DNA from: Lysobacter firmicutimachus
GTDB taxonomy: Bacteria > Pseudomonadota > Gammaproteobacteria > Xanthomonadales > Xanthomonadaceae
Assembly (NCBI RefSeq): GCF_037027445.1
Contig: NZ_JBANDL010000002.1
Location: 2,480,001-2,544,000, forward strand
Length of the DNA: 64,000 nt
Reading direction: 5' to 3'
Below, piece by piece: positions 32,360-55,261 of this stretch. Within the stretch, counting starts at the first letter, position 1, and the number at the start of each line of letters is the position of its first letter. The notes under the pieces were generated by a model, which had not been told where the DNA came from, ran no database searches, and saw nothing but the letters and a program-made list of their open reading frames with translations. The position numbers and the translations under genes are program-made.

Positions 32360-32834
32360 GGCGTCCTCCTCGGCGGCGCATGGGCGGCGGGTGTGTCGCT
32401 GGCGGCGGCTGTCGATCGGTGCTGTCGTTGCGGGCTGTCACTCTCCATCGAAGCAAGGCGCATGCCAGCGGCGCGTCCGCGGACGTGGCCGTCGTCCGCC
32501 GGTCAGGCGCGATTCGGCCAAGCCCGGCCTTCGCCGCCAGCGGGCCCGCGCGGACGTTTTCCCGCCGAGCCGACGCGGAAACCGGCCGATGCCGCACCAC
32601 CGCGCGGTTTGGGCGACGGCTCATTCGGCAAGGCCGGCGCCTCCCGCCGGATACGGTCCGGCCCGCGCGTCGGAATCCGCGCAAGGCATTCGCCGCGACC
32701 GGAAGTATTTTCCTTGCGCGAACAAATTTCGCCGCGATTCGGCAGGGCGGCGACCGGCGCGGGCCGAGTCGGCGCGCGGCTCGGCGCGGTTGCGACACCG
32801 CCCAGGCCGCTTCGTGGCCGTGCGCAAGGCGTGT
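32360..32834. other. Intergenic region with a sigma-54 promoter
   Basis: 475 bases without a supported gene between two minus-strand genes. It contains the -24/-12 sequence at 32453-32467 and otherwise only chance Arg-rich frames. Confidence 0.5.
32453..32467 (-). promoter_or_regulatory. Sigma-54 (-24/-12) promoter candidate
   Basis: Minus-strand TGGCATGCGCCTTGC, preceded by C and followed by TT. GG at 32466-32465 and GC at 32454-32453 are exactly 10 bases apart. One mismatch to TGGCACG (T for C). It points at the 74-aa/61-aa/ubiB-like genes. Confidence 0.7.
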
Positions 32835-33107
32835 TCAGCGGGCCCGGCTGGGGCTGTGGAACAGACTGTAAATGCCGAGCGAGACGATCGCACCAAGCAG
32901 GCTAAGCGTCAAACCGGCCAGACTGAGATCGCCGCGATCGAGTTGGCTGATGCCCAGCAAGCGTGCGGCGCAGCCGCCGGCGATCGCGCCGGCGATTCCG
33001 ACCGCGATGTGCTGCGCGGTGTGGGGCGGCGCTGCGTTGCGCATGGCGCGGCTGCCGATCCAGCCGACCAGGGCGCCTATCGCGAGCCAAACGAGGATGC
33101 CGATCAT
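32835..33107 (-). CDS. GlsB/YeaQ/YmgE family stress membrane protein
   Basis: 90 residues, three hydrophobic helices with glycine-rich faces: IGILVWLAIGALVGWIGSR, HIAVGIAGAIAGGCAARLLG and LSLAGLTLSLLGAIVSLGIY. This is the 'transglycosylase-associated' PF04226 family, induced by stress in many bacteria; the biochemical role is unknown. GAGGAG lies 7-10 bases before the ATG. Unlike its neighbours, I find no correctly spaced sigma-54 site in front of it. Confidence 0.88.
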   Translation of the reverse strand: MIGILVWLAIGALVGWIGSRAMRNAAPPHTAQHIAVGIAGAIAGGCAARLLGISQLDRGDLSLAGLTLSLLGAIVSLGIYSLFHSPSRAR

Positions 33108-33486
33108 GCCGTTTCTCCTCTTCGATGCCGGCGCAAACGGCCGCCGGAGGCCGTATGTCGCTATCTCACGATGGTCGCGCCGCCGTCACGAACGCGTCCT
33201 TTGCGCACCACGAGGCGCTTGGGTTGCGACGATCTGCGCAGTCCGCCACGTTTTGTCCGTGCGTTCGCGCAAGTCCGCGCAAGCGAGCGCCATGCGGCGC
33301 GGGCTGGCACAGGGTTTGCTTTATAGCGGTTGCCCGTTCCATCGTTGGTCAGAACGCATAAACGGCGCGAAGGCGGGCAGGGCCGTGGCCGGCGCGGTTG
33401 CGGGCGTTCGCAGCCATGGGCGCGCAGGTTCGCGGCCTCCATCCGAACGGCCGCGCATCGCGTATGCGCCGACCTGCGAGGCGATC
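33108..33486. other. Divergent intergenic region with a sigma-54 promoter
   Basis: 379 bases without a supported gene. It contains the -24/-12 sequence at 33305-33319 and several GCGCAAG repeats around 33265-33290 that could be activator sites. Confidence 0.5.
33305..33319 (+). promoter_or_regulatory. Sigma-54 (-24/-12) promoter candidate
   Basis: CTGGCACAGGGTTTGCTT, with GG at 33306-33307 and GC at 33318-33319, spacing 10. It differs from TGGCACG by one base only. It lies about 165 bases upstream of the VOC/UdgX gene pair. Confidence 0.8.
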
Positions 33487-33867
33487 ATGCACAGAAGCCG
33501 ATTCGCGCAATTGGTCATCGATTGCGAAACCACCGACCCCGATTGGGCGGCGCAGTTCTGGGCCCAGGCCCTGGGCTGCCGCATCCATCGTCTGCACAGC
33601 AGCGGCGACGCGATGTACCGGCAGTTGCTGACCCATGAAAACCAGCCCTGCGTCCTGGTGCAGGCGGTCGAACACGCCAGTCGCATGCACCTGGACATCG
33701 AGACCGACGACGTCGAGGCCGAAGTCGTGCGCCTGGAGCAACTCGGCGCGGCGCGCATCGCCCAGGTCAAGCAATGGTGGGTGATGGCGGCGCCGACCGG
33801 GCAGCGGTTTTGCGTGCTGCCGCCGCAACGGCCCGATTTTCCCGCGCACAGCAACGTGTGGCGTTGA
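33487..33867 (+). CDS. VOC superfamily (glyoxalase-like) protein
   Basis: 126 residues with two beta-alpha-beta-beta-beta modules: FAQLVIDCETTDPDWAAQFWAQALGC...YRQLL, then SRMHLDIETDDVEAEVVRLEQLGA...WWVMAAPTGQRFCVLPP. This is the glyoxalase-like PF18029 type. The metal ligands cannot be assigned with certainty and the substrate is unknown. The start was chosen by the family N-terminus; the longer upstream frame crosses the promoter. It is followed at 12 bases by udgX. Confidence 0.85.
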   Translation: MHRSRFAQLVIDCETTDPDWAAQFWAQALGCRIHRLHSSGDAMYRQLLTHENQPCVLVQAVEHASRMHLDIETDDVEAEVVRLEQLGAARIAQVKQWWVMAAPTGQRFCVLPPQRPDFPAHSNVWR

Positions 33868-33879
33868 CCCGAGGCGGCG

Positions 33880-34575
33880 ATGAACGCACCCGACGACGGC
33901 GGTCCCAGGCGCGCTCCGGCCCGACGCGCGCACCTGTCCACGGCGGTGCCGTTCGCCAAGCCGGTCGGCGAAATTCCCAAGGGCTCGTTGCGCCATCTCC
34001 GCGACGAGGCCGAGCACTGCCGTCGTTGCCCGCTGTGGCGCGGCGCGACCCAGACCGTGTTCGGCCGCGGCTCGTCCGATGCGCGGGCGATGCTGATCGG
34101 CGAGCAGCCCGGTGACCGCGAGGACCTGCGCGGTGAGCCCTTCGTCGGCCCGGCCGGACGCCTGCTCGACAAGGCGCTGGCCGACGCCGGGCTGGCGCGC
34201 TCGGCCTTGTACCTGACTAACGCGGTCAAGCATTTCAAGTACGAGCAGCGCGGCCCCGACCGCCTGCACACGCGCGCCAGTGCGCGCGAGCAGGAAGCCT
34301 GCCGGGTCTGGCTCGCGGCCGAGTGGCTGCGGGTGCGTCCGCGGTTGGCGGTCGCGCTCGGTGCGATGGCGGCGCAGACCCTGTTCGGCAGCGGCTTCCG
34401 GCTCAGCCGCGAGCGCGGGCAATGGCTCGAACTGGAACCGCATTGCCGGGCGTTGGCGACCTGGCACCCGTCCTCGGTGTTGCGCACCCCGGGAACGGGC
34501 CGGCAAAGGCGCTACGCCGAACTGGTCGAAGACCTCGGCCGGCTGGCCGAGGCCTTGCGCGAACCGGAGCCGTGA
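33880..34575 (+). CDS. UdgX-type uracil-DNA glycosylase
   Basis: 231 residues, Fe-S uracil-DNA glycosylase superfamily. Motif A GEQPGDREDL (E75, Q76) and PFVGPAGRLLD are diagnostic of UdgX rather than family 4. The UdgX loop is present as RLH (R128-L129-H130), where the reference enzyme has RIH with the His that forms a covalent bond to the abasic site. Cluster cysteines are C47 and C50 (HCRRC), then those in EQEACRVW and EPHCRALATWHPSS. It acts on uracil in DNA and may trap the product covalently. Operon partner of the VOC gene. Confidence 0.9.
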   Translation: MNAPDDGGPRRAPARRAHLSTAVPFAKPVGEIPKGSLRHLRDEAEHCRRCPLWRGATQTVFGRGSSDARAMLIGEQPGDREDLRGEPFVGPAGRLLDKALADAGLARSALYLTNAVKHFKYEQRGPDRLHTRASAREQEACRVWLAAEWLRVRPRLAVALGAMAAQTLFGSGFRLSRERGQWLELEPHCRALATWHPSSVLRTPGTGRQRRYAELVEDLGRLAEALREPEP

Positions 34576-34608
34576 GCGCCCGCGTGTTCGACGCTGCGCG
34601 GGCCGGGG

Positions 34609-35208
34609 TCAGCGCCGGCACAGGCGCTCGTCGAGCGCGACCACGTCGGCCGACAACACATCGAGCTTGTCGCGGTCCTCGTGGCCGAGGTTGAGCAGCA
34701 CGTTGCGTTCGCGCGGCGACAGTGCGCTGGGCACGAACAGGCCGAACGAGGGGCCGGCGTCGAGCCAGCAATCGCCGACCCGGCGCACGTGTTCGCGGTA
34801 CGGCCGCTGATCCCAGTCCTCGGGCACGGCGCCGCAGGGGTGCACGCAGTCGGCCGGCACGCTGGCCACCGCCATGCGCAATTCGCGCGGCGCATCGCCG
34901 TCCAGGTGGGCAACGAACTCGAGCAGCGCGCCGGCCGGCGACAGTGAGGCGTAGATCGCGCGCCGTCCGGGGGAGGTCCAACGGCCGCCTTCGAATCCGG
35001 GCCCATCGTCGAACGCGTGCTCGACCTGCTCGGCGGCGACCACGCGATACAAGAGCAGATGCGGCAGCTTGCGCGCCGGTTCGGCGGATTGCGGCGCGCT
35101 GGTGGATGGCGGATCGCTGGCGGGGAAGCTGTCGGCGAGCTGCTTGTCGCGCGAGGCGGGACGCGCTTCGGGCGTGCCGGCGGGCGGATTGGGCTTGGAC
35201 TGGCTCAT
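34609..35208 (-). CDS. RES-domain protein
   Basis: 199 residues counted from the ATG at 35208. After a disordered head containing the ADSFPASDPPS motif, the RES fold starts at LLLYRVV (Arg), continues GRRAIYASLSPAGALLEFVAHL (Glu) and ends with GLFVPSALSPRERNVLLNLGH (Ser), so the three name-giving residues are present. Known RES proteins are NAD+ phosphorylase toxins paired with a Xre antitoxin, but no Xre gene is adjacent, and the arrangement looks like the stress-associated stand-alone subgroup. There is no Shine-Dalgarno before this ATG, and the frame is open into an upstream lipoprotein-like segment through a C9 tract (see findings). Confidence 0.8.
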   Translation of the reverse strand: MSQSKPNPPAGTPEARPASRDKQLADSFPASDPPSTSAPQSAEPARKLPHLLLYRVVAAEQVEHAFDDGPGFEGGRWTSPGRRAIYASLSPAGALLEFVAHLDGDAPRELRMAVASVPADCVHPCGAVPEDWDQRPYREHVRRVGDCWLDAGPSFGLFVPSALSPRERNVLLNLGHEDRDKLDVLSADVVALDERLCRR

Positions 35209-35541
35209 GGTTCGGGGGCTCGGTCGGGGGAGGGGGGGGGATTCGGCCGGCCCCGGTTTGGCCGGCGCGCTCACCGCGGGGGCTGCCCGCGCCGTGTCGC
35301 TCGCGGGCGCCTGGCAGTCCTCCAGCGCCGGCCCGGACAGGCCGGTGCAGGCGCTGCCCGGTGCGGTGGTTTCGCGCCCGGCCTCGGTCGCGTTCGCCCC
35401 CGGTTGCGCGATCGTGCTGTCGCGGGTGTCGGACTCTTGCGGCGGTTGGCTGCGACGCCGGTCGCAGGCGCCGGCCACGAGCAGCAGGCACAGGCCCAGG
35501 CAGAGCGGCAGCGCTAACGATTTGCTCATCTGACGTTTCAT
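35209..35541 (-). CDS. Lipoprotein-like segment fused in frame to the RES gene
   Basis: 111 codons from the ATG at 35541 (MKRQMSKSLALPLCLGLCLL, lipobox around LVAGAC). They read on without a stop into the RES frame. After the lipid-attachment Cys comes a low-complexity linker with a Cys pair (SACTGLSGPALEDCQAP). The run of nine C (minus strand, 35240-35232) precedes the junction. With eight C the frame would end in TGA overlapping the RES ATG (ATGA). So this is either a separate small lipoprotein gene with an assembly or phase-variant frameshift, or a genuine lipoprotein-RES fusion. Confidence 0.6.
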
Positions 35542-35575
35542 CGCGCAGTTCCGTTCGGTGTCGTGGAAGGGCGCA

Positions 35576-35590
35576 GCAAGCTCCGTGCCA
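35576..35590 (-). promoter_or_regulatory. Sigma-54 (-24/-12) promoter of the lipoprotein/RES gene
   Basis: Minus-strand CTGGCACGGAGCTTGCTG: GG at 35589-35588 and GC at 35577-35576, spacing 10, and a full match to TGGCACG-N4-TTGC. It lies 35 bases upstream of the ATG at 35541. Confidence 0.85.
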
Positions 35591-35735
35591 GCGCCGGCGC
35601 GCGGCGCGGCGATGCAACGCCGGTGTCGTTGCGCCAGCTCCCGCGCCGCGCAGATTCTGCCGGGCTGCGCAGGAGTTCCTGCGCGCCTGCCATTCATCGA
35701 CCTCGCTCGCGCCGTGCTGGCGCGCTCGCGGGCTC

Positions 35736-35751
35736 TTGGCACGCGACTTGC
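35736..35751 (+). promoter_or_regulatory. Sigma-54 (-24/-12) promoter of the SDR/BON genes
   Basis: TTGGCACGCGACTTGCGG: GG at 35738-35739 and GC at 35750-35751, spacing 10, full consensus. The expected start near 35763 leaves a leader of about 80 bases before the SDR ATG. Confidence 0.87.
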
Positions 35752-35844
35752 GGCTGTTCCAGTTGTTTCCCGCGTTGCGGTGGCCGCGCGCGCCACCGCA
35801 TCGGGAATCTCATCTCCCAGTCGTTCAACCCCTGGAGCGCGAGC

Positions 35845-36711
35845 ATGAACGAAGCCAGCACCACCCAGCCCCAGCCGCCGCAGTCGCAGGACGAGCAGCC
35901 GGGCCAGCAGAAGCCGATGCTGCCGCAGCCCGAGACCATCCGCGACAGCTACCTCGGTTCGCAGCGATTGAAGGACAAAGTGGCGATCGTCACCGGCGGC
36001 GACAGCGGCATCGGCCGCGCGGTCGCGGTGCATTTCGCCCGCGAGGGCGCCGATGTCGCCATCGCCTATCTCAACGAAGAAAGCGACGCCGAAGAAACCG
36101 AACGGCTGGTGCGCAAGGAAGGCCGACAATGCCTGCGCATCGCCGGGGACGTCGGCGACCCGGAGCACTGCCGCGAGATCGTCCGCCGCACCGTCGAGGC
36201 CTACGGCCGCGTCGACGTACTGGTCAACAACGCCGCCGAGCAGCACAAGGTCGAAGAGCCTGAGCAACTGACTCCGGCGCAGATCGAGAGGACCTTCCGC
36301 ACCAACATCTTCGCCTACTTCTTCATGGCCACCGCGGCGCTGCCGCACATGCCGCGCGGCGCCAGCATCCTCAACACCGGCTCGGTCACCGGCGTGCGCG
36401 GCCACGAGCAACTGATCGACTACGCCGCCACCAAGGGCGCGATCCACGCGCTGACCTTTTCCCTGGCCCAGGCCGTGGCCGGTCGCGGCGTGCGGGTCAA
36501 TGCGGTGGCGCCGGGCCCGGTGTGGACGCCGCTGATCCCGGCCAGCTTCGACGAGGAGGAGGTGGCCAAGTTCGGCGCCGACACCTTGCTCAAGCGTCCC
36601 GGCCAACCGTGCGAGATCGCACCGGCCTACGTGTTCCTGGCCAGCGAAGAGGCCTCGTACATCACCGGGCAGACCATCCACATCAACGGCGGAGGACACA
36701 TCAGTGCGTAA
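35845..36711 (+). CDS. Short-chain dehydrogenase/reductase (stress-type, YghA-like)
   Basis: 288 residues. NAD(P) motif TGGDSGIG near residue 51, NNAA motif (VLVNNAAEQ), catalytic Ser in NTGSVTG and YxxxK in IDYAATKGA. The ~45-residue Gln/Pro-rich N-terminal extension (QPQPPQSQDEQPGQQ) followed by PETIRDSYLGSQRLKDKVAI is characteristic of the YghA/GsiB-like SDRs that accompany general-stress genes. Substrate unknown. Its stop overlaps the start of the BON gene by 8 bases. Confidence 0.92.
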   Translation: MNEASTTQPQPPQSQDEQPGQQKPMLPQPETIRDSYLGSQRLKDKVAIVTGGDSGIGRAVAVHFAREGADVAIAYLNEESDAEETERLVRKEGRQCLRIAGDVGDPEHCREIVRRTVEAYGRVDVLVNNAAEQHKVEEPEQLTPAQIERTFRTNIFAYFFMATAALPHMPRGASILNTGSVTGVRGHEQLIDYAATKGAIHALTFSLAQAVAGRGVRVNAVAPGPVWTPLIPASFDEEEVAKFGADTLLKRPGQPCEIAPAYVFLASEEASYITGQTIHINGGGHISA

Positions 36712-38149
36712 GCAGCAGCGCGAGAACGATCCCTTGGGGACCGGCGAGCTGAAGGCCGTGGCCGAAGAGGCATTGCGGCTAGGTGCCCGGGCTCTGGAAA
36801 AGAGCCGCGAATGGTTCAACGAAATGACCGACAACTTCACCGACAGGAGCGACGACATGAGACATCAAGGCGAACGCAATCGTGGCGAGCGTGGCCGCGA
36901 TCCTTACGGGCGCGAAGCGCAGCAGCAGCGGCCCCGCTCGCAGCAGGCCGGATCGCGCGGCGATTACGATGACGGCGACGACTACGCCGCCGGCCCGAGC
37001 ACCGGTTCGTCCGGCCGCGATTGGGACGAGCTGAGCACCCGCGGCGCCGACCGCCACGGCCATGAGCGCGGTGGCGGCTACATGCCCGAGCGCGGACGCG
37101 AATACGGCCATGCCAGCGGCTACGACTCGGGTCGCCAGGACTACGGACGACAGCACGATGGCCGCGAAGACTACGGCCGCGGCTGGCGCGACGACCGCGG
37201 CCAGGATCAGGCCCGCTCCAGCCGCTCGCACTCGGGCGAACGCAGCCTGTACGGCGCCCATGGCCCCGATATCGAACGCGCCTATTACGACAGCGGCTGG
37301 CGCGCCAGCGGCTTCGACGAACGCAGCCAGAGCGTGGGCTGGGAAGACGACCGCGGCGATGCCCCCGGCACCTCGCGCGGCTCGCGCTTCGGCGGCAGCC
37401 GCGGCGGCTACTCGCGCTTCGGACCCAGCTACGGCGGCGAAAGCGCCGGCCGCGGCGGCCGCGAAGGCCTGTACGACTACAGCGAACACCGCCCGCAACA
37501 AACCCGTGGCGGCGGCGAAGACCGCTCCTACAGCGACCGCGGCGGTCGCGGCTACGGTCAGGGCTACGGTCGTTCGTCGGGTTATGCCGATCGCAGCGGC
37601 TTCTCGGCCTCGGCCTACGGCTCCGGTTTCGACGCCAATCCCGGCGCCTACCGCGAACAGGGCGTGGCCAGCCAACGCGGCCGCGGCCCCAGCCGTTACA
37701 CCCGCTCCGACGAGCGCATTACCGAAGACCTCAACGAGCGCCTGACCGAAGACGAGCTGATCGACGCCAGCGATATCGAAGTGCGCTGCGAGAACGGGCG
37801 TATCGTGCTCGAAGGCGAAGTCGACCAGCGCTGGATGAAACACCGCGCCGAAGACATCGCCGACGCCTGCAGCGGGGTCAAGGACGTCGACAACCGCATC
37901 CGCGTGCGTGGAGGCGGACGCACAGGTTCGGACCACGGCGGCGACCGCCACAACGAAACCGGCAGCGGCCCGCAGGCCGGGCAGGGCAGCCAGGGCCAAG
38001 GGCAGGCCAGCCAGCGCGGCGCCAGCGCTGGCCAGCCCCGCACCGGCACCCTACCGGGCACGTCGGCGCCGCCATCGAGTGGCACGGGAAGCGGCGCGAC
38101 CGGTACCGGCACCGCGGGCAACCAAGGTGGGGGAGCGCAGACCCACTAA
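36704..38149 (+). CDS. BON-domain protein with a long RG/YG-rich disordered region
   Basis: 481 residues if started at the GTG overlapping the SDR stop (GGAGGA 7 bases before). Residues 1-51 form a helical module (KAVAEEALRLGARALEKSREWFNEMTDN). From 52 to about 330 the sequence is low complexity, rich in R, G, D, Y and S (units such as RQDYGRQHDGREDYGRGWRD). A single BON domain follows (RSDERITEDLNERLTEDELIDAS...VRCENGRIVLEGEV), then a Gly/Gln/Ser tail. An ATG at 36857 with AGGAG 7 bases upstream is an equally good start, so one mRNA may give two products or two adjacent genes may be fused. BON domains bind membranes or envelope partners. Confidence 0.8.
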   Translation: MRKQQRENDPLGTGELKAVAEEALRLGARALEKSREWFNEMTDNFTDRSDDMRHQGERNRGERGRDPYGREAQQQRPRSQQAGSRGDYDDGDDYAAGPSTGSSGRDWDELSTRGADRHGHERGGGYMPERGREYGHASGYDSGRQDYGRQHDGREDYGRGWRDDRGQDQARSSRSHSGERSLYGAHGPDIERAYYDSGWRASGFDERSQSVGWEDDRGDAPGTSRGSRFGGSRGGYSRFGPSYGGESAGRGGREGLYDYSEHRPQQTRGGGEDRSYSDRGGRGYGQGYGRSSGYADRSGFSASAYGSGFDANPGAYREQGVASQRGRGPSRYTRSDERITEDLNERLTEDELIDASDIEVRCENGRIVLEGEVDQRWMKHRAEDIADACSGVKDVDNRIRVRGGGRTGSDHGGDRHNETGSGPQAGQGSQGQGQASQRGASAGQPRTGTLPGTSAPPSSGTGSGATGTGTAGNQGGGAQTH

Positions 38150-38309: not shown

Positions 38310-38981
38310 TCAGGACCGGCGCGAATGACCACGAAGGCGGCGCGCGCCCCCGACCAGAGCCAAAATGCCGAGTCCGGCCAGGGCCAGGCCCGGCGCCGGC
38401 AGCAGCATCGCCACGAGCAGGCCGAACGGCGCCAGGACCAGGCCCCAACCGAACAAATCGGCTTGCGCGGCGGTCGCCGGCAGCGCCGTGCGCCGCGCCA
38501 GCCAGGCGTCCAGGCTCAGGCGCCCGGGGCCGCCGAGAATCAGCGGCCACAGCATGACCAGGAAGATCAGCGGCAGCTTGTAGTTGCCGCCGCCGCTGTC
38601 GCTGATCGCATAGCCCTGGGCGAGCTGGGCCAGGCCCATCCAGTCCTGCGGCCAGTGCACGGCGGCGGTGGCGACCACGGTCAGCACGAACAGCGAGGCG
38701 GCGGCGAACCGGGTGGCCAGGCCGAGCAACAGCGCGATCGCGCCGAGCAGTTCGAACCAGGTCGCCAGCGACCAGCTCAGCGTGGCCGGCACGCGGTCGA
38801 ACGGGAACGGGAACTGGGCCATGATCTCGCCGAACCAGTTCTCGCCATGGAGCTTCTCGCGCCCCGATTCGAAAAACTCCCAGGCCAGGATCAGGCGCAA
38901 GCCCACCGGCGCCAGCCAGGTGCCGACGCCGTCCAGGCGGTCGCGCAGGGCGACGCAGGGATTCAGCAGAGACAGCGACAT
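38310..38981 (-). CDS. DoxX-family membrane protein of the Hvf/bufferin operon
   Basis: 223 residues with several hydrophobic helices: [22 protein letters not shown] (the conserved DoxX first helix and loop), [39 protein letters not shown] and [23 protein letters not shown], plus a last helix near 195. The family is annotated as terminal quinol oxidase subunit-like; in MNIO/RiPP operons it is named HvfX or BufD and its role is unproven. Last gene of the four-gene operon, 59 bases after the DUF2063 gene. Confidence 0.88.
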
Positions 38982-39040
38982 GATGTGCTCCAAATAGTTG
39001 AGTCGTAGGCACCGGCATTCGCGCCGGCGAGATGTAGCGA

Positions 39041-39817
39041 TCAGGCCGAGGCATTCGCCGCAGCGACGTAGATCACTGCATTGGCGCGCATCGTCCGCAG
39101 CAGGCCGTGGCCGAGTTCGAGGAACGCGGCCGGGTCGTCGCTGCCGGCTTCGGCGGCCAGGGCGGCGAGTTGTTCGCGCGCGGTCAGCTGCGGCGCTTCG
39201 CCGATGCGTTCGACCAGGCGATAGGCCAGCGGGCTGAGCTCGGAGAACCGGACTTTGCCGTCGGCCTCGCGGCGCAGCAACAGCAGACTGGGCGTCTGCG
39301 GCGCGTGCTCGGGGACGAAGCCGGGGCCGATGCGGTGCACCGGCCAGGCGTAGGCCAGGGGCCAGGCCAGCGGCGACAACTGCGGTGCGTGCTCCAGCAG
39401 GTCCGCGTCGGCGATGCCGGCGTCGTCGCGCAGGGGCTGCGCTTCGCTCAGTTGCAGGGCCAGTTCGACCCATTCGTAATGCGCCAGCTCGGTCAGGAAC
39501 GGCGGGTCGCCGACGGCGTCGCGCTGCTCCAGATAGCGCATGAACTCGCGCGCGATCTCAGGAAACAGCGGGGTGCGGCAACGATGGTCGCGGTAGAAGT
39601 CGCGCACCAGGCGCGGCCAGCGTTCGTCGCCGAGCAGCCGGCTGATGACCGGGAAGTTGCCCGCCAGCAGGCCTTCGATGTTGTTGAAGAACAGGTCGCG
39701 GTAGATGCCCAGGCGGCGGTCTTCCAGGCCGGCCGGGGCCGGACTGGCCTGCAGGTCGCGCAGGTGGCGGGTCAATTCGAATTGTTGCGCGCGCAGGCGC
39801 GAAGGAGCGTCGTTCAT
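39041..39817 (-). CDS. DUF2063 partner protein of the MNIO enzyme (HvfC/BufC-like)
   Basis: 258 residues. The N-terminal DUF2063 part ([43 protein letters not shown]) binds the RiPP precursor, and the C-terminal part ([18 protein letters not shown]) is a winged-helix-like domain. In characterised systems it forms a heterodimer with the DUF692 enzyme and recruits the precursor. It starts 15 bases after the DUF692 stop. All family hallmarks and normal length are present. Confidence 0.9.
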
Positions 39818-39832
39818 GGGCGGTGCCTGGAC

Positions 39833-40690: not shown

Positions 40691-40706
40691 CGTCATCGCG
40701 CTGCGA

Positions 40707-47000: not shown

Positions 47001-47366
47001 CGCGAGTACCGCGGACAGGTGCGCGCGCTGTTCGCGTTCGCTGCGGCTGAGCTGGCGCGCGCTGGCGACGATCCAGATCAGCAGCGCAGACACCAGCAGA
47101 TAGAATGCGGCGCCGTCGCTGCCGAGGTTGCGCAGCAGCCCCGGCCACAGCAGCACCGCGCCCAGGCTGGCGGTCAGGCCGATCAGTCCGCCGCGGGCGC
47201 CGTAGAACGCGCTGGCGAGAATCACCAGCAAGTAGAACAGCGCGATCGGGAAGGCTTCGGCGACGCTGCGGCCGTAGCGGACGTGAACGGCGATGGCGAG
47301 CAAAGCCAGGATCAGCGCGATCGCCAGTTCGCGCGATCGATGCCGGCCGCGCTCCGCGCTGGACAT
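44052..47366 (-). CDS. Membrane hybrid histidine kinase with multiple PAS domains
   Basis: 1104 residues. An N-terminal MASE-like membrane region (to about 110, four to five helices: LAIALILALLAIAVHV, PIALFYLLVILASAFYGARG and others) is followed by about five PAS modules, the last two with PAC-type WIGGIRDVHERR and WYGASTDIEDQKR. The DHp box has the phospho-acceptor H738 (AVLSHELRNPLSG), then the catalytic domain (FDNLLSNAVKAS, IEVSDQGQGLS, GLGLGLSIVKTLVERHGG), and a C-terminal receiver with D1032 (VVLCDLELPG). It ends the three-gene signalling unit and starts one base after the 78-residue gene. Confidence 0.93.
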   Translation of the reverse strand: MSSAERGRHRSRELAIALILALLAIAVHVRYGRSVAEAFPIALFYLLVILASAFYGARGGLIGLTASLGAVLLWPGLLRNLGSDGAAFYLLVSALLIWIVASARQLSRSEREQRAHLSAVLAGIEDGVVAVDQHRRVRYLNAVAESMLGCSSERAEKRPIGELLAGLPEDAFDADAGSASRSTYHIDLSGSGAELTADVVRLQAGRDADSGHVLFLRRRCGDQPSLSDRKLRAVFDTEMWGICFADLDGGRWLANPRFRRMLLGDHGSETGTLDGRPPGELASDDLQHLGVPRGLLDTLRREGGFRPTEVQVLGRQGRADWVLLAGEALSGRDVALLALDISEHKRIDAALRAQRQLMRAMIDRLPALVAYIDIERRYRLFNRSFEDCFAGMPLHGMRVDEAHPHSDLAPYLPLLQRALEGQAVRFPAELLLAGERRHYDVQFVPHQPDGETVEGAVIHAVDITDRIEATRRVAASERRFRSLALAWAGIVWCADRDGRMLDAPGWEALTGQPPLQYRGDGWLDAIDPDDRARVRDAWGEALREAPAQTLDLEFRVRTATGEARYVALRAVPVLTEDETVAEWIGGIRDVHERRVFELQLRRAEAEQHALLDNLPKMVWIAEPDGGIRYQNRHWYEYTGLSGQEDWRHIVHPDDLDNGQRAWDQAIRAGRQLNVELRFRRADGAYRWHIVRAQPLFDDHGRLRCWYGASTDIEDQKRALETLAAANQRISRFLAVLSHELRNPLSGVSAASELLSRNDLPAADRERALATLLRQNRHLHRLVEDLLDISRVTQGDLELRRERFDLNRLLEEVHSDHVDRAGHEQVAIEAALPVEPCWVDGDRARLRQVFDNLLSNAVKASSPGQRIRIDAATTEEGALIEVSDQGQGLSRDLSTRLFEPFVQTPDWRSRGLGLGLSIVKTLVERHGGSVAAHSAGLGRGARFSVRLPLASPRSETAPSTALAEVEASLGMPRADMPADRACGRVLIVDDETDTAEALRVLLKLQGHHAECAIDAEQALAAWRRGAFDVVLCDLELPGPLNGYDIASTLRSQRNSPYLVAYSGYGQAGDRDRTAAVGFHEHLVKPAGIEEILASIERGMRQAQAS

Positions 47367-47367: not shown

Positions 47368-47593
47368 TCAGGCTTCCGCCGGCGGCTCGGCCAACAAGGC
47401 CGAACAACGCTGGCAGGCGTCGCGCACCCGGCGCAGGTTGTCGCGCACGGCCGGGTCGTCGCCGGCGCCGGCTTCGATCAGCCTGTGCGCGGCGGCGCTG
47501 GCCATGGTCACGGTGTTGACCTCGTTGCGCAGTCGGTGCAGCCAGCGAGCGAACTCGGTCGGCCCGGCCGGCGGCGTGGAGGCGGCGGCCCGA

Positions 47594-47604
<11 letters not shown>
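47368..47604 (-). CDS. Small DHp/HPt-like signalling protein
   Basis: 78 residues, helical: FARWLHRLRNEVNTVTMASA, then HRLIEAGAGDD and NLRRVRDACQRCSALLAEPP. The first helix, LHRLRNEVNTV, resembles a histidine-kinase H-box (HELRNPL), with a candidate phospho-His two residues before LRNE, and the second half could pair as a hairpin. No catalytic ATPase part. Its ATG lies inside the last codons of the sigma-54 activator and its stop is one base from the kinase start, so all three are translationally coupled. It could be a phosphorelay shuttle or an inhibitor of the kinase. Confidence 0.7.
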
Positions 47605-48970
<1,366 letters not shown>

Positions 48971-48998
48971 GCTAGCTGAGCGTGAGTTAACGGTGCGT

Positions 48999-49019
48999 CG
49001 GCGGAAAATGATTCCGCCG
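48999..49019. promoter_or_regulatory. Inverted repeat, candidate activator-binding site
   Basis: CGGCGGA-AAATGAT-TCCGCCG, perfect 7-bp arms, spacer 7. It lies 29 bases upstream of the regulator's GTG and about 250 bases upstream of the sigma-54 promoter of the divergent operon: a position compatible with autoregulation and with an enhancer. Confidence 0.45.
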
Positions 49020-49261: not shown

Positions 49262-49276
49262 TGGCACGGGAGTTGC
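49262..49276 (+). promoter_or_regulatory. Sigma-54 (-24/-12) promoter of the Ku/LigD operon
   Basis: TGGCACGGGAGTTGC preceded by C: GG at 49263-49264, GC at 49275-49276, spacing exactly 10, full consensus. The expected start near 49288 gives a leader of about 64 bases before the ATG at 49352. Confidence 0.88.
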
Positions 49277-49351
49277 GTCATCGCTGATGCGCCCGGTCGC
49301 AACATGCGATCGCACTGCCTACGCAACGGATCCATCCTTCAGGAGACGCAC

Positions 49352-49810
49352 ATGGCTTACTCGTCCACCCGCGCTTTTCCCGCTGCACTCGTTTTCGCGC
49401 CTTACGAGGGGCCGGCCCGCGCCGGCGTCGCGGCGCGGACGACGGAGGCATCGGGCCATCCACCGCGCGAAACGGCGCGTCCACCCGGAACGAAAGGCCA
49501 GACCGCCGCTTCGCCTGCGTCGATGCAGTCCCTGGACGTGATCGACATGGAGTCCGAACTCAGCTACTGGCGCACCCACTATCGCGGCATGTCTCGATGC
49601 GAAGGCCTGCGCTACAGCGATTACGAACCGGCGCTCAAGCTGGGCCTGGACGCTTACATGCGCGGTCACGGCCGCTCGCTCAGCGACATGGAGCAAGAGT
49701 TGCGCGATTGCTACCGCCGCACCCGCGGCGGCTCGCGACTGGACTGGGATCAGGCCCACAGCGTGGTCCAGGCGGCCTGGGACCGGTTGAACGACCGGGG
49801 CGGCAGATGA
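49352..49810 (+). CDS. Hypothetical protein, first gene of the repair operon
   Basis: 152 residues. A disordered head of about 60 (Pro/Thr/Ala-rich) precedes a compact helical region: LSYWRTHYRGMSRCEGLRYSDYEPALKLGL, then DAYMRGHGRSLSDMEQELRDCYRRTRGGSRL and SVVQAAWDRL. The arrangement resembles small stress proteins found next to general-stress genes in Proteobacteria, but no function is known. AGGAGACGCAC precedes the ATG. Its stop overlaps the next start (ATGA). Confidence 0.78.
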   Translation: MAYSSTRAFPAALVFAPYEGPARAGVAARTTEASGHPPRETARPPGTKGQTAASPASMQSLDVIDMESELSYWRTHYRGMSRCEGLRYSDYEPALKLGLDAYMRGHGRSLSDMEQELRDCYRRTRGGSRLDWDQAHSVVQAAWDRLNDRGGR

Positions 49811-50280
49811 CTCTGCGCGAAACGTTCGAGCGCGGCGCGAAGGCCGCCGCGCGTTTTACCGGCCACCCCCTGTGTTTCTGCCTGGCGGTCGGAGTGGTCC
49901 TGCTGTGGCTGCTCAGCGGGCCGGTGTTCGGCTTCAGCGACACCTGGCAGCTGATCATCAACACCGGTACGACCATCGTGACGTTCCTGATGGTGTTCCT
50001 GATCCAGAACTCGCAGAACCGCGATGCCGCCGCGGTGCAGATCAAACTCGACGAGCTGATACGGGCGACGCTCAAGGCCGAGAACGCCTTGCTCGATCTG
50101 GAAGAACTCGACGAGGACACGCAAGAGCGGTTCCGTCGGCGCTACGAAGCACTGGCGAAGAAGGCCCGCCGGCTCAGCGGCCGCAGCCGACGCGGCGGTT
50201 CCGCCGACGTCGGCGCCGACGCCCCCGGGTCCGATGCCGAGCCGTCGCCGCCGGGAGGCGGCGCTTCCACCCCAACTTAA
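49807..50280 (+). CDS. Low-affinity iron permease family protein
   Basis: 157 residues (PF04120). Two hydrophobic helices, HPLCFCLAVGVVLLWLLSGPVFGF and IINTGTTIVTFLMVFLIQNSQNRD, are followed by a helical cytoplasmic domain (IQIKLDELIRATLKAENALLDLEELDEDT) and a Pro/Gly tail. Named after yeast Fet4, but the bacterial versions are much shorter and iron transport is unproven. Coupled to the previous gene by a 4-base overlap. Confidence 0.88.
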   Translation: MTLRETFERGAKAAARFTGHPLCFCLAVGVVLLWLLSGPVFGFSDTWQLIINTGTTIVTFLMVFLIQNSQNRDAAAVQIKLDELIRATLKAENALLDLEELDEDTQERFRRRYEALAKKARRLSGRSRRGGSADVGADAPGSDAEPSPPGGGASTPT

Positions 50281-50294
50281 CGAGGCGATACGAC

Positions 50295-50903
50295 ATGAAA
50301 AAGACTCAACCCGAAGCCGCCCAAGTGCGCGAGTTGCTGCTCCAGGCCCTGCAGACCGAGCAGGGCGGCGTAAAGATCTACGAAGCCGCCGTCGCCAGTG
50401 CGATCAACGACGACCTGCGCAAGGAGTGGACGGACTATCTCGAAGAAACCCGCACCCACGTACGGGTGCTGTTGAATGTGTTCGAGGAGCTCGGCCTGGA
50501 TCCGGAACAGACCACGCCGGGTCGCGATGTCGTCGGTCGCATCGGCGAATCGCTGGTCGCGGCGATCCGCGAGGCGCAAAACACCGCCGAGCCTGCGGCG
50601 GCGCAACTGGTGGCGGCTGAATGCGTGGTCCTGGCCGAGACCAAGGACCATATGAACTGGGAGCTGATCGGCCACCTGGTCGAACACGCCAAAGGCGAGG
50701 GCCTGGACGTGCTGAAAACCGCCTTCGAAGCGGTCGAGTCCGACGAGGACCATCATCTGTACCACACCAAGGGCTGGGCGCGAGAGCTGTGGATCGAAGC
50801 CTTGGGCCTGCCTGCGGTACTGCCGCCGCCCGAGGAGGTCAAGAAGGTCGAAACCGCGATCGGCGCGGCCCGCGCCGAACAAGCCCGCTCGCGCATGCTC
50901 TGA
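50295..50903 (+). CDS. Ferritin-like domain protein
   Basis: 202 residues. A four-helix bundle with carboxylate/His spacing typical of di-iron proteins: LLLQALQTEQGGVKIYEAAV, EWTDYLEETRTHVRVLLNVFEELG, AECVVLAETKDHMNWELIG and AVESDEDHHLYHTKGWARELW. Close to the stress-induced YciE/DUF892-like ferritins. Likely role: sequestration of iron or removal of peroxide. The operon gap is 14 bases. Confidence 0.85.
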   Translation: MKKTQPEAAQVRELLLQALQTEQGGVKIYEAAVASAINDDLRKEWTDYLEETRTHVRVLLNVFEELGLDPEQTTPGRDVVGRIGESLVAAIREAQNTAEPAAAQLVAAECVVLAETKDHMNWELIGHLVEHAKGEGLDVLKTAFEAVESDEDHHLYHTKGWARELWIEALGLPAVLPPPEEVKKVETAIGAARAEQARSRML

Positions 50904-50913
50904 GCGCTGCTCG

Positions 50914-51615
50914 ATGAACGCGGCCAAGAAGAAAGGGCTTGCGGCGGCGTCGGGTTTCTGGCGCCGCAACTCGCTCTCGCTGGTGCTGCTGGCCCTGTTC
51001 GGGATCAGCCTGTTCGGCCAGATCGCCGCCGGCCGCGCCGTGCTCGACCGCGAACGGATCGAGCACGGCCAGCCGCCGCTGGACTGGGGCGAGTACTTCC
51101 GCCACGGCCAGTTCTTGTCGGCGACGTTCGAGAACTGGGAAAGCGAGTTCCTGCAGATGGGGCTGTACGTGCTGCTGACGGTATGGCTGCGCCAGCACGG
51201 CTCAGCGGAATCGCGCAAGGTCGAGGAACGCAACGACGGCACCGAGGAAGAGGGTGGGCGCGAGATCGAGCCCGGGCCGACGCCCGGGCCGGTGCGGCGG
51301 GGAGGCGCCTGGGCGGCGCTGTACGCCAATTCCCTTTCGATCGCCTTGCTGTCGCTGTTCGCGCTCGCCTTCGCCGGCCACGTCTACGGCAGTTGGCGGC
51401 AGCAAGTGGAACAAGCGCAGCGCGAAGCCCAGCCGGTACCGAGTCTGAGCGAGCACCTGGGGTCGGCGCAATTGTGGTTCGAGTCGTTCCAGAACTGGCA
51501 GAGCGAGTTTCTCGCCGTGCTCACCCTGGTGGTACTGTCGATTTGGCTGCGCCAGGCGCATTCGCCGCAATCCAAACCGGTGCGCGCGCCGCACGCCCAG
51601 ACCGGCGCCGGGTGA
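50914..51615 (+). CDS. DUF6766 family membrane protein with internal duplication
   Basis: 233 residues in two repeats of about 100. Each has a helix (NSLSLVLLALFGISLFGQI and NSLSIALLSLFALAFAGHV), a loop with a W-x-SEF motif (NWESEFLQMG and NWQSEFLAVL) and a second helix ending VWLRQHGS or IWLRQAHS. A charged linker separates them. The function is unknown. It sits in the operon between the ferritin-like gene and ku. Confidence 0.82.
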   Translation: MNAAKKKGLAAASGFWRRNSLSLVLLALFGISLFGQIAAGRAVLDRERIEHGQPPLDWGEYFRHGQFLSATFENWESEFLQMGLYVLLTVWLRQHGSAESRKVEERNDGTEEEGGREIEPGPTPGPVRRGGAWAALYANSLSIALLSLFALAFAGHVYGSWRQQVEQAQREAQPVPSLSEHLGSAQLWFESFQNWQSEFLAVLTLVVLSIWLRQAHSPQSKPVRAPHAQTGAG

Positions 51616-51705
51616 TCGCGATGCGGCGCTCGTTCACCCGCCCTGGACGGTTGCGGTCGCACAGTCTGAAGCCCCGCTTCCCGTCACGCATTGCGAGGTG
51701 CCGTC

Positions 51706-52629
51706 ATGGCGCGCCCGATCTGGACCGGAACCCTGTCGTTCGGCCTGCTCAATATTCCGGTCAAGCTGATGACCGGCGAACGCCGCGTCGATCTGCATTT
51801 CCGCATGCTCGACAGCCGCAACAAAGCGCCGATCCGCTACGAGCGGGTCAACGAGGAGACCGGCGAAGAGGTGCCTTGGAAGGAAATCGTCAAGGCCTTC
51901 GAGTACGACAAGGGCAACTACGTGGTGATCGAGGATACCGACATCGCCGCCGCGGCTCCCGAGCACAAGGAAACCGTGGACATCGAAGCTTTCGTCGACG
52001 CGGCTGCGATCGGGCCGCAGTTCTACGACAAGCCGTATGTGCTGGAACCGGGCAAGAAGGCGGAGAAGGGCTACGTACTGTTGCGCGAGGTGCTGCAGCG
52101 TGCCGGCAAGGTCGGGGTGGGGCGGGTCGTGATCCGAACCCGCGAGTATCTGGCCGCGGTGATACCGCAGGATCAAGCGCTGCTGCTGTTGATCCTGCGC
52201 TATGCCCAGGAGATCGTCGACCCGGCCGATTACAAGCTGCCCGAAGGCGGTCTGGCGAAGTGGAAGATCTCAGCCCGCGAGGTGGACATGGCCCAGAAGC
52301 TGATCGAATCGATGAGCAGCGATTGGGAGCCGGACAGCTATCGGGACGATTTCCGCGAGCGCCTGCACAAGGTGATCGAGCAGCGGGTCAAGTCCAAGCA
52401 GGTGGTGCGCGGCAAGTCCGTCGACGAGAGCAAGCTGCCGGAGAACGCGGCAACCAATGTGATCGACTTCGCCGAGCTGCTCAAGCGCAGCCTGGAAAAG
52501 AAGGGGGGAGGTACGGCGGCCAAGCCGGCCAAGAGCGCGGCCAAGAAAGCGGCGAAGAAAGCGGCGAAGAAGACCGCCAAGAAGAGCGTGCGCCAGGGAA
52601 GCGGCAAGGGCGCGCGCAAGTCGGCCTGA
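51706..52629 (+). CDS. ku: Non-homologous end-joining protein Ku
   Basis: 307 residues. It binds DNA double-strand ends as a homodimer and recruits LigD. Core signature: ARPIWTGTLSFGLLNIPVKL, RYERVNEETGEEVPWKEIVKAFEY, FYDKPYVLEPGKKAEKGYVLLREVL and LRYAQEIVD. The C-terminal tail is a Lys/Ala-repeat (KSAAKKAAKKAAKKTAKK), the DNA-contacting extension of bacterial Ku. GAGGTG precedes the ATG. It is 28 bases before ligD. Confidence 0.96.
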   Translation: MARPIWTGTLSFGLLNIPVKLMTGERRVDLHFRMLDSRNKAPIRYERVNEETGEEVPWKEIVKAFEYDKGNYVVIEDTDIAAAAPEHKETVDIEAFVDAAAIGPQFYDKPYVLEPGKKAEKGYVLLREVLQRAGKVGVGRVVIRTREYLAAVIPQDQALLLLILRYAQEIVDPADYKLPEGGLAKWKISAREVDMAQKLIESMSSDWEPDSYRDDFRERLHKVIEQRVKSKQVVRGKSVDESKLPENAATNVIDFAELLKRSLEKKGGGTAAKPAKSAAKKAAKKAAKKTAKKSVRQGSGKGARKSA

Positions 52630-52657
52630 ACCGCGACAGAGCAGCGGAAGCGAAGCC

Positions 52658-55261
52658 ATGACTCTGCGCGACTACGCTAGCAAACGCCGTCTCGGACTTA
52701 CTCCGGAACCCGGCGTAGAGGGCGGCCGGGCCCGGCGGCGCGCCGGCGGACGGCCGATCTTCGTGGTCCAGTTGCATCACGCGCGAGCCAGGCACTACGA
52801 CTTCCGTCTCGAGGCCGACGGCGTGCTCAAGAGCTGGGCGGTGCCGAAGGGGCCGTCGCTTCGCGCCGGCGAGAAGCGGTTGGCGGTCGAAGTGGAGGAT
52901 CACCCGATCGATTACGCCGGCTTCGAGGGCGATATTCCCAAAGGGCATTACGGCGCCGGCCATGTCGATCTGTTCGACCGCGGCACCTGGTCGACCGAGC
53001 GCGACGCGCTGGAGCAGATCGCCGCAGGCAAGCTGGATTTCGAGCTCGACGGCGAACGGCTGCACGGCGGCTATACCCTGGTCCGCACCCGCCGCGCAGG
53101 GCGCCAACCCCAGTGGCTGCTGATCAAGCGCGGCGACGAACATGCGCGCGATCTGGACGCCGACGGCTTGCTTCGGTCGCCGGTCAAGTCATCCGCCAAG
53201 TCGCCTGCGTCCCCGGCTTCGTCTACGCCGAGCCGGGCGCTTCCCGTGCGCCGTGCCACGCCCGCCGGCGTCGCCTCGCGCGAACGTTGGCGCAAGGCTG
53301 CGCTGGCCGTGGACGGCGCGACCCCGGCGACCATGCCCAAGCAGATCGAGTTGCAATTGGCGAGCCTGCGCGAACGCCCGCCGGCGACCGGCGAATGGCT
53401 GTACGAAATCAAATGGGACGGCTATCGACTGCTCGCTTGGATACGGCGCGGCGTACGCCTGGAGTCGCGTAACCGGATCGACTGGAGTGCGCGTTTTCCG
53501 GCCCTGGTGGAGGCGCTAGGCGCCCTGCCGGTACGCAGCGCGGTGCTGGACGGCGAGCTGATCGCCCTCGACGCCGAAGGCCGCAGCGACTTCGGCGAGC
53601 TGCAACGCAGACTCGAGGCCGGCGAGGTCGGCGGCCTGCGTTATGTGGTGTTCGACTTGCTATATCTGGACGGCATCGATCTGCGCGAAGCCGGTCAGGC
53701 AGACCGGCGCGCGCTGCTGCGGCGCCTGCTCGAAACTTCCGCTTCGCCCGTTCTCGTCTTCAGCGAACACGTCGAAGGCTCGGCCGCGCAGGTGCTGGCG
53801 GCGAGCGCCCGTGCCGGCCTGGAAGGAATCGTGTGCAAGCGCGTCGCGGCGCCGTATCGCGGCGGCCGCAGCCAGGCCTGGATCAAGCTGAAGCACGTCG
53901 CCGACGAGGAGTTCGTCGTGGTCGGCTATACCCCACCGCGCAACAGCCGCAGCGACTTTGGCTCCTTGCTGTTGGCCAGGCCGGAGGGCGGAGGCTGGCG
54001 CTACTTCGGCCGGGTGGGCAGCGGCTTCGACGACGTGGCCCTGCGCGCGATCGGCGCCCGTTTGCGGCGCCTGCATCGGGACCGGCCGGTGCTGACGCTG
54101 CCGGCGCATGTGCCGTTTCCGGTGCGCAAGGTGCAGTGGGTCCGCCCGCAGCTGGTGATCGACGTGCAATCGCGCGGTCGCGGCAAAGAGGGGTTGCTGC
54201 GCCAGGCCAGCTTCCTGCGCCTGCGCGAGGACAAGGCCGCGGCCGATCTGGCCGCACCGTCGCGCCGGCGTGCGCGAACGCCGGAGCCAGGCGAGGACAC
54301 CGCAATGAAACAGCTCCCACCGGACGGAGCCAAAAAAGCGCGCGGCCGCAGTCGCTCCAACGCCCCGAAAACCGACGCCGAATCGAGGCGGTCCGTTCGC
54401 GTCGAGTCGTTGCCGCTGACTCACCCCGAGCGGATCGTCTATCCCGACGCCGGTATCCGCAAAGGCGAGGTCGCCGAGTACTATCGCGCGGTATCCGCCT
54501 GGCTTTTGCCGGAACTGATCGATCGCCCGCTGTCGTTGCTGCGTTGCCCGCATGGAATCGCGGACGCCTGTTTTTTCCAGAAGCACTACAACGGCAGTTT
54601 CGGTCGCGACGTGCACCCGGTCGCGCTCGAGGAATCGGGCGGGCGCGCCGACTACGTGTATGTGCGCGACCTCGACGGCGTGCTGGCCCTGGTGCAGATG
54701 AATACGATCGAGTTCCATCCTTGGGGGGCGCGGCGCAAGGCTCCGGACAAGCCGGACCGGATGGTGTTCGACCTCGATCCGGCGGAGGGCATCGCCTGGA
54801 GCGAACTCAAGCGCGCCGCGCGCGAAGTGCGCGACCGCCTGGCCGAACTCGGCCTGGAAAGTTGGGTGCGCCTGTCCGGCGGCAAGGGAGTGCACGTGGT
54901 CGTGCCGATCCGCCCCGGGCCGCAATGGAGCGAGGTCAAAGACTTCTGCGAGGCCTTTGCTGACGCCATGAGTACCCAGTCGCCACTGCATTACGTCGCC
55001 ACGGCCTCCAAGGCCGCGCGCAAGGGGCGGATCTTCATCGACTGGCTGCGCAATACGCGCGGCGCCACCAGCGTCGCCGGGTGGTCGTTGCGCGCCCGCG
55101 CCGGAGCGCCGGTAGCGATGCCGTTGCGTTGGGACGAGTTCTCGCGCAGCGGCTCCTCGACCGACTTCGACCTGCCCAAGGCCGTGCGGCGCGCGGCGCG
55201 ACTGCGCAGCGACCCCTGGGAAGGCTTCGCCGAAAGCCGCCAACGCCTGCCCGGCCGCTAG
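52658..55261 (+). CDS. ligD: ATP-dependent DNA ligase LigD (PE-LIG-POL)
   Basis: 867 residues with all three modules. The 3'-phosphoesterase has H40, H46, D48, R50 (LHHARARHYDFRLE). The ligase has catalytic K252 in YEIKWDGYR and the OB-fold. The polymerase/primase has D705/D707 in MVFDLDP and SGGKGVHVVVPI. The order PE-LIG-POL is that of Pseudomonas LigD. A Ser/Pro/Ala linker separates PE from LIG. It ends with a 4-base overlap with the convergent mgtC-like gene. It is the last gene of the operon that starts at 49352. Confidence 0.96.
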   Translation: MTLRDYASKRRLGLTPEPGVEGGRARRRAGGRPIFVVQLHHARARHYDFRLEADGVLKSWAVPKGPSLRAGEKRLAVEVEDHPIDYAGFEGDIPKGHYGAGHVDLFDRGTWSTERDALEQIAAGKLDFELDGERLHGGYTLVRTRRAGRQPQWLLIKRGDEHARDLDADGLLRSPVKSSAKSPASPASSTPSRALPVRRATPAGVASRERWRKAALAVDGATPATMPKQIELQLASLRERPPATGEWLYEIKWDGYRLLAWIRRGVRLESRNRIDWSARFPALVEALGALPVRSAVLDGELIALDAEGRSDFGELQRRLEAGEVGGLRYVVFDLLYLDGIDLREAGQADRRALLRRLLETSASPVLVFSEHVEGSAAQVLAASARAGLEGIVCKRVAAPYRGGRSQAWIKLKHVADEEFVVVGYTPPRNSRSDFGSLLLARPEGGGWRYFGRVGSGFDDVALRAIGARLRRLHRDRPVLTLPAHVPFPVRKVQWVRPQLVIDVQSRGRGKEGLLRQASFLRLREDKAAADLAAPSRRRARTPEPGEDTAMKQLPPDGAKKARGRSRSNAPKTDAESRRSVRVESLPLTHPERIVYPDAGIRKGEVAEYYRAVSAWLLPELIDRPLSLLRCPHGIADACFFQKHYNGSFGRDVHPVALEESGGRADYVYVRDLDGVLALVQMNTIEFHPWGARRKAPDKPDRMVFDLDPAEGIAWSELKRAAREVRDRLAELGLESWVRLSGGKGVHVVVPIRPGPQWSEVKDFCEAFADAMSTQSPLHYVATASKAARKGRIFIDWLRNTRGATSVAGWSLRARAGAPVAMPLRWDEFSRSGSSTDFDLPKAVRRAARLRSDPWEGFAESRQRLPGR

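Follow-up and report, generated by a model that had tools for sequence, protein, structure and literature searches.

General stress responses are the textbook examples of sigma-factor switching: EcfG is an extracytoplasmic function (ECF) sigma factor freed by an anti-sigma switch, and RpoS acts with no enhancer-binding activator. The processes tied to sigma-54 are nitrogen, motility and surface traits, and the factor stays silent unless an ATP-driven activator is at work, whose usual loop reads GAFTGA; glutamine synthetase (glnA) and rtcB are its long-known, textbook targets. Here we analyse a stretch of 64,000 nucleotides from the soil bacterium Lysobacter firmicutimachus (RefSeq assembly GCF_037027445.1, contig NZ_JBANDL010000002.1, positions 2,480,001 to 2,544,000 of the forward strand; hereafter the window). 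Judged from its sequence, the window is likely to hold the core of a sigma-54-dependent general-stress regulon under one dedicated NtrC-family response regulator.

The gene content of this set matches that of general stress regulons, and its control element is of the sigma-54 type. The EcfG regulon of Sphingopyxis granuli TFA includes ku-ligD and an mscS channel (PMC7083833). The present set resembles this alphaproteobacterial EcfG/PhyR response in carrying Ku-LigD in the window and LigD-Ku with an MscS-like gene in two other genomes of the genus (G009 and G004); it differs in that sigma-54 and an AAA+ activator are found here and an ECF sigma factor there. The Salmonella RpoS regulon has CsbD-like and KGG-repeat proteins as targets (PMC5437024). 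KGG proteins (by Pfam) and CsbD-like proteins (by eye) also stand behind the palindrome promoters described below, although the sigma factor of the Salmonella regulon is a different one. With the known NtrC-family/sigma-54 systems the locus shares the domain order of the activator, the -24/-12 element and paired upstream palindromes, whereas its GSFTGA loop, its own operator sequence and its stress targets, instead of nitrogen, flagella and pili, set it apart. Sigma-54 (sigma-N) has also been studied in Stenotrophomonas maltophilia, a related bacterium. There, lower rpoN contributes to reduced menadione tolerance, a result that fits a stress regulon; the accessible text names no such activator, operator or target genes (PMC10433810).

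Five candidate -24/-12 elements are found in the window (Table 1). All lie where the earlier note had placed them, with 35736-35751 corrected to 35737-35751. Four match TGGCAC-N5-TTGC exactly and the fifth has one mismatch, the GG and GC being invariant; the earlier count of three full-consensus and two one-mismatch sites holds if a G is demanded after TGGCAC. The four exact sites fall within 16.8 kb, compared with a mean of 0.17 in shuffles of the 64 kb (more than 20-fold enrichment), and none of 100 shuffles contained four. Across the 5.32 Mb of the genome there are 12 exact sites and 3 matches to the pattern read backwards, so that one third of its exact sites are in these 16.8 kb (Poisson P = 1.7e-8 at the density outside the window, for an interval picked post hoc). 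In coordinate order, the GC lies 93, 167, 34, 93 and 74 bases before the first gene's start codon. RpoN is encoded by one gene in the genome (a single PF04552 match, C2:3796241).

The same sites are kept before the same genes in relatives. We fetched up to 40 kb around activator orthologues in 14 genomes; within the genus the activator is found in 7 of 20 genomes (its own included), with at least 71% identity in five other species and a second genome of the same species. The UbiB operon has an exact TGGCAC site in its orthologues of G008, G009, G004 and G010, and orthologues of its first gene, a 74-residue protein, lie behind that site in the same four genomes. VOC orthologues have exact sites in G006, G009 and G004 and a one-mismatch site in G010, where the RES orthologue also has a one-mismatch site. 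Exact sites precede the short-chain dehydrogenase (SDR)-BON pair in G008, G009 and G004; in G006 and G010 an exact site is found ahead of BON only. The operon that diverges from the activator has exact sites in G008, G006, G009 and G004. The uncharacterised family that opens this last operon has a homologue behind the same promoter in G008 and G006 and similar proteins (by eye) in G009, G004, L289, L290 and L292, in several genera. Close SDR, UbiB and VOC orthologues (at least 72% identity) were found only in the activator-bearing genomes of the genus, and all have an exact or one-mismatch site. Of the more distant homologues, which share about 48-59% identity and in part come from activator-bearing genomes, none of 8 SDR, 3 UbiB and 24 VOC loci proved to have a suitably placed site, one of the UbiB loci having only about 480 upstream bases before the contig end. 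A one-mismatch match does occur near three of the distant VOC genes: at two loci it lies about 570 bases upstream, and at the third it is downstream. The check on close relatives proposed in the earlier note thus comes out in its favour: five other species of the genus keep sites, which distant homologues of three genes lack. Its claim that each site stands upstream of a stress or repair operon also stands as to the operons, while its emphasis on DNA repair gives way to general stress, which fits better because end joining is variable.

A second element links these promoters. We selected 32 promoters in 12 genomes by their -24/-12 element and searched the 300 bases before each for palindromes; at odd motif widths the search converged on CCGGAA-N5-TTCCGG, with a log-likelihood of 97.8 at width 17. 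Mononucleotide shuffles (21.5-29.1, compared with 91.7-102.2 for the odd widths) were dropped as an over-favourable control and therefore replaced by real-sequence controls, which leave a smaller gap: a reduced set of 22 promoters gave 61.4, versus 29.1-44.0 in 16 runs, 8 on samples from upstream of other sigma-54-like sites and 8 on samples of random segments of the same regions. One control run upstream of other sigma-54-like sites returned the palindrome TGCACC...GGTGCA, which resembles the NtrC box. When each clade was left out in turn, 26 of the 32 cluster promoters reached at least 11 bits, compared with 4 of 60 control sites drawn from 110 other TGGCAY-N5-TTGC sites in six genomes (all of those in G000 (19) and G009 (16), some in G004 (4), G006 (16) and G008 (5), none in G010). 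The palindrome scored at least 9 bits in 29 of 32 promoters; in 19 of these a second copy accompanies it, in 14 cases at 19-20 bp, about two helical turns. Scored with a matrix whose training left out the window's clade, the window has predicted operators at the UbiB promoter, between the RES and SDR promoters, and between the activator and the permease-Ku-LigD operon (Table 1), the last with counterparts in G008, G006, G009 and G004. A remote palindrome-plus-site candidate, L089, was rejected, its palindrome lying in or beside a coding frame. Separately, TGGCACACTATTTGC recurs with an identical spacer in four genomes (L099, L120, G004:C9:1441 and G010:C1:2179312) and is probably a conserved sigma-54 promoter; the palindrome scores there are 11.6 bits at L099 and 6.7 at L120.

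Altogether, these results argue strongly for the regulon and its operator, and the gene content makes a stress function likely. From the sites, the palindrome, their conservation and their co-occurrence with the activator we infer that, upon an inducing signal, the phosphorylated activator would bind CCGGAA-N5-TTCCGG palindromes, frequently in pairs with a 19-20 bp spacing and in most cases 50-260 bp upstream, and would drive open-complex formation by RNA polymerase-sigma-54 at TGGCAC-N5-TTGC promoters. The predicted targets are BON, SDR, RES, ABC1 kinase, ferritin-like and permease stress proteins, joined in part of the clade by Ku-LigD end joining and a uracil-DNA glycosylase-type enzyme. 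Control by the neighbouring activator, as put forward in the earlier note, probably extends to those promoters that the palindrome links to the activator; the VOC-UdgX promoter of the window, which has no palindrome nearby, does not share that support.

The same arrangement extends beyond the genus. Of 398 genomes sampled from the order, 72 carry activator orthologues (E<=1e-100), which are spread over 26 of 98 genera. Forty regions that had played no part in training (0.8 Mb; 38 further genomes plus two same-species regions) contain 32 exact sites (4 same-species) and none for the reversed pattern, and 18 of the 32 (3 same-species) have a palindrome within 300 bases. One-mismatch sites have a palindrome in 24 of 88 cases, compared with 3 of 31 reversed one-mismatch controls, and a site plus palindrome occurs in 24 of the 40 regions (2 same-species).

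To see which genes these promoters precede, we took the first one or two frames, called by a simple composition rule, behind 67 site-plus-palindrome promoters (118 entries; the same-species genome was omitted, and 3 more promoters had no frame). Dropping 1 duplicate and 19 frames judged spurious by eye left 98, with orthologues of related genomes counted separately and the control set left unpruned. Among the 25 of 69 families listed for these frames there are 17 BON, 8 SDR, 5 KGG, 4 DUF4142, 4 glyoxalase-like and 4 DUF305 proteins, and the activator itself appears 5 times, which implies autoregulation; CsbD-like, OsmY-like and superoxide-dismutase-like sequences were also recognised by eye. 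The 53 frames behind other sigma-54-like sites include 5 glutamine synthetases and 3 RtcB, with no BON or KGG protein among the 25 of 27 families listed. This contrast, BON and KGG on one side and glutamine synthetase and RtcB on the other, suggests that the pattern picks out genuine sigma-54 promoters and that the palindrome set is a separate one. At two of the glutamine synthetase loci (L093 and L108) the site, TGGCACGCGACTTGC, is identical to the SDR-BON site of the window and has no palindrome.

The end-joining genes are a variable part of the set. The window carries both bacterial end-joining proteins, Ku and a LigD that has ligase, polymerase and phosphoesterase domains. Ku or LigD stands behind the divergent promoter in 5 of the 7 activator-bearing genomes of the genus: in the order Ku-LigD in the window and the same-species genome, as LigD then Ku behind an MscS-like gene (by eye) and the same conserved promoter in G009 and G004, and as Ku alone in G008. 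In G006 and G010 there is no Ku or LigD within the 40 kb examined, and six regions of other genera (L293, L302, L304, L324, L328 and G044) have Ku or LigD with none seen directly behind such a promoter. End joining is for this reason best described as a recurrent but optional member of the regulon. It may even lie outside it, if only the first genes of each operon depend on sigma-54 and Ku and LigD are expressed mainly from a sigma-70 or sigma-S promoter of their own, an arrangement that we consider unlikely, though it is the strongest of the alternatives. Ku begins some 2.4 kb and LigD 3.4 kb past the 49262 site, and in G009 LigD is preceded by a gap of some 290 bp and has a plus-strand terminator-like match at its start, such matches being at chance level in that stretch (4, versus 3.9 in shuffles). 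Between 47300 and 55400 of the window, by contrast, no sigma-70-like and no plus-strand terminator-like site was found by consensus scans, which are weak in such GC-rich DNA; the genes are close together on one strand, and two gene orders (permease-ferritin-DUF6766-Ku-LigD and MscS-like-LigD-Ku) stand behind the same conserved promoter.

Our literature searches turned up no description of end joining under sigma-54 control, in agreement with the earlier note, which was aware of none. A survey of sigma-54 reports some DNA-repair COGs as enriched among predicted targets, and a term look-up found no mention of end joining in the accessible parts of this survey (PMC12316311) or of a comparative sigma-54 study (PMC3162934). 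PMC7280030 contains none of six terms for stress and repair. No sigma-54 regulon with Ku-LigD or BON/KGG was found in print, the accessible part of PMC8657755 included, in a search that covered few subscription papers and no preprints.

The activator itself has the domain order of an NtrC-family response regulator (Pfam Response_reg, Sigma54_activat at 8e-66 and HTH_8). Its receiver residues D29, D30, D73 and K122 and the GSFTGA loop are invariant in 15 orthologues. Among the 120 matches listed, the named database records describe it generically, one as AtoC, and named genomes scanned with the activator alignment gave generic AAA+ patterns, with 37-48% identity at best among the matches listed. 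As the genome has further NtrC-family activators (two more matches at E<=1e-60), the sites might be real while the palindrome belongs to another regulator, for example a repressor, and a different sigma-54 activator drives the promoters. We regard this as improbable. In the window the start codon of the activator has a palindrome 30 bp ahead of it, and palindrome and site together precede the activator gene in five other genomes; within the genus, presence and absence of the sites follow that of the activator, and exact sites number 32 in 0.8 Mb around the activator (38 further genomes plus the same species), compared with 12 in the 5.3 Mb of the window genome.

The pairing of this activator with a kinase is less regular than the phrase "with its kinase" in the earlier note suggests. 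The genes for the activator, a 78-residue HisKA-like protein and a hybrid sensor kinase overlap or abut in the window. Of 54 orthologue regions, only 8, the window and the same species included, have such a hybrid kinase (at least 43% identity) next to the activator. The small HisKA-like protein, located by its motif, is directly downstream of the activator in 24 of the 54, and in G008, G010, G033, L289, L290 and L294 it is present with no such hybrid kinase adjoining.

The small protein resembles a HisKA (DHp) domain in its H-box-like motif and predicted helical hairpin (AlphaFold, mean predicted local distance difference test score 91.7), and differs from one in having no ATPase domain, no conserved acidic residue and a profile match below the cut-off. 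Its H23, R26 and N27 are invariant in 21 aligned members. HisKA is the best Pfam match, below the cut-off, in 4 of 5 members tested, the fifth having no match; these matches are weak (E=0.061 for the window protein and 0.00038 in L305), as is the best match of a PDB profile search, a histidine kinase at E=0.0091. A structure search gave no match at E<=0.001, and the histidine-kinase hairpins that it returned stood among many other hairpins, which does not contradict the HisKA assignment. In kinases an acidic residue usually follows the H-box histidine; here that position is R, G, D, S, Q, K or A. Because the acidic residue is not conserved, a role in relay or dephosphorylation seems likelier than one as a kinase, and we conjecture that the small protein probably relays phosphate to the activator receiver or removes it.

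Several observations weigh against the regulon as proposed. When up to two mismatches are allowed, the window shows no enrichment of sites (64 seen, 77 expected), so that the signal resides only in near-perfect sites. Even motif widths gave a different core, CGCAG-N6-CTGCG or similar, at lower likelihood (67.6-72.3). The Mann-Whitney P of 2e-12 for the leave-one-clade-out contrast is overstated, because the training promoters share ancestry and were selected for their -24/-12 site, and 6 of the 32 cluster promoters remain below 11 bits. The highest-scoring palindrome of the window (5397-5413, centred on 5405; 18.4 bits) is inside a coding frame with no sigma-54 site beside it. The operator common to RES and SDR (11.4) scores no better than matches at 42905 (11.8, coding) and 51752 (11.3) and is supported instead by where it lies and by its counterpart in G008. 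At the VOC-UdgX promoter of the window the palindrome score is only 3.6 bits and the nearest operators are about 580 bp away. Transcription from the 49262 site would have to read through to LigD, at the distance given above, and readthrough that far is presumed. In g17, one genus of the family (G034, L315-L317), none of the four regions examined has a site plus palindrome. The missing enrichment of two-mismatch sites would also suit chance matches in GC-rich DNA, an explanation so improbable that it can be set aside, since the exact sites are more than 20-fold enriched, their conservation across species before the same genes already contradicts it, and other exact or near-exact matches precede glnA and rtcB, both textbook targets.

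Table 1. Sites, predicted operators and genes of the proposed regulon, in positions of the window.
Feature	Position	Strand	Remarks
ABC1/UbiB-type kinase	30159..31877	-	Pfam ABC1 9.8e-64; behind small open reading frames with no Pfam family
74-residue protein, gene 1 of UbiB operon	32135..32359	-	no Pfam family
-24/-12 site, UbiB operon	32453..32467	-	TGGCATGCGCCTTGC; TGGCAT-N5-TTGC, one mismatch
Predicted operator, UbiB promoter, copy 1	32699..32715		18.1 bits
Predicted operator, UbiB promoter, copy 2	32717..32733		14.8 bits; 18 bp from copy 1
-24/-12 site, VOC-UdgX	33305..33319	+	exact TGGCAC-N5-TTGC
VOC / Glyoxalase_6 protein	33487..33867	+	Pfam 4e-22
UdgX-like uracil-DNA glycosylase superfamily protein	33880..34575	+	Pfam UDG 1.6e-31; UdgX label from the earlier note
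Lipoprotein-like RES-domain protein	34609..35541	-	Pfam RES 5.5e-21
-24/-12 site, RES-domain protein	35576..35590	-	exact TGGCAC-N5-TTGC
Predicted operator common to RES and SDR promoters	35647..35663		11.4 bits
Degenerate second RES/SDR copy	35666..35682		by eye, 19 bp away; aligned G009 copy 4.4 bits
-24/-12 site, SDR-BON	35737..35751	+	exact TGGCAC-N5-TTGC
Short-chain dehydrogenase (SDR)	35845..36711	+	Pfam 5e-61
BON-domain protein	36704..38149	+	Pfam BON 2.4e-17
Hybrid sensor kinase	44052..47366	-	Pfam: PAS repeats, HisKA, HATPase_c, receiver
78-residue HisKA-like protein	47368..47604	-	motif HxLRNExN, no ATPase domain; start overlaps activator stop
Sigma-54 activator	47594..48979	-	receiver, AAA+ with GSFTGA loop, Fis-type helix-turn-helix
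Predicted operator between activator and permease-Ku-LigD operon	49001..49017		17.0 bits
-24/-12 site, operon divergent from activator	49262..49276	+	exact TGGCAC-N5-TTGC
Divergent operon gene 1, uncharacterised family	49351..49810	+	no Pfam match
Low-affinity iron permease family protein	49807..50280	+	Pfam 1.5e-49
Ferritin/rubrerythrin-like protein	50295..50903	+	Rubrerythrin 0.00085, DUF892 0.00027, both under curated cut-off
DUF6766 protein	50914..51615	+	Pfam 6.1e-86
Ku	51691..52629	+	Pfam 3.1e-42
LigD (phosphoesterase, ligase, polymerase domains)	52658..55261	+	Pfam

Three neighbouring stretches of the window are of separate note. On the minus strand, 38310-41250 holds DoxX and DUF2063 genes (Pfam), a small Cys-Gly-rich precursor-like frame and a DUF692-like gene, a cluster that resembles copper-binding bufferin operons. 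A partial Glyco_hydro_85 match (E=7.2e-19) lies at 42049-43761 on the same strand, between the stress genes and the kinase. Beside LigD, 55950-57360 (plus strand) encodes small KGG-, BON- and DUF3247-like proteins (by eye) and CDVCGN-motif proteins; no sigma-54 site with zero or one mismatch precedes them here, and similar proteins are found behind such promoters in other genera.

For part of the order to which Lysobacter belongs, the analysis points to a further architecture of the general stress response, a generalisation for and against which we see the chances as evenly balanced. In place of a sigma factor freed by stress (RpoS, EcfG, SigB), one phosphorylated sigma-54 activator with a paired operator would switch the classic stress genes (OsmY/BON, CsbD, KGG, SDR, DUF4142, superoxide dismutase, ferritin-like, Ku-LigD), regulating its own gene and being tuned by a stand-alone HisKA-like protein that has no kinase domain. 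If this is true, sigma-54 and a dedicated activator take a role in stress-gene control usually held by quite different regulators, and, because sigma-54 is silent without its activator, the regulon would leak little and respond to a single clear input. A function would then be assigned to an activator so far described only generically among the matches listed, and bacterial end joining would come under sigma-54 control. A concrete operator sequence, promoter list and knockout can now be tested.

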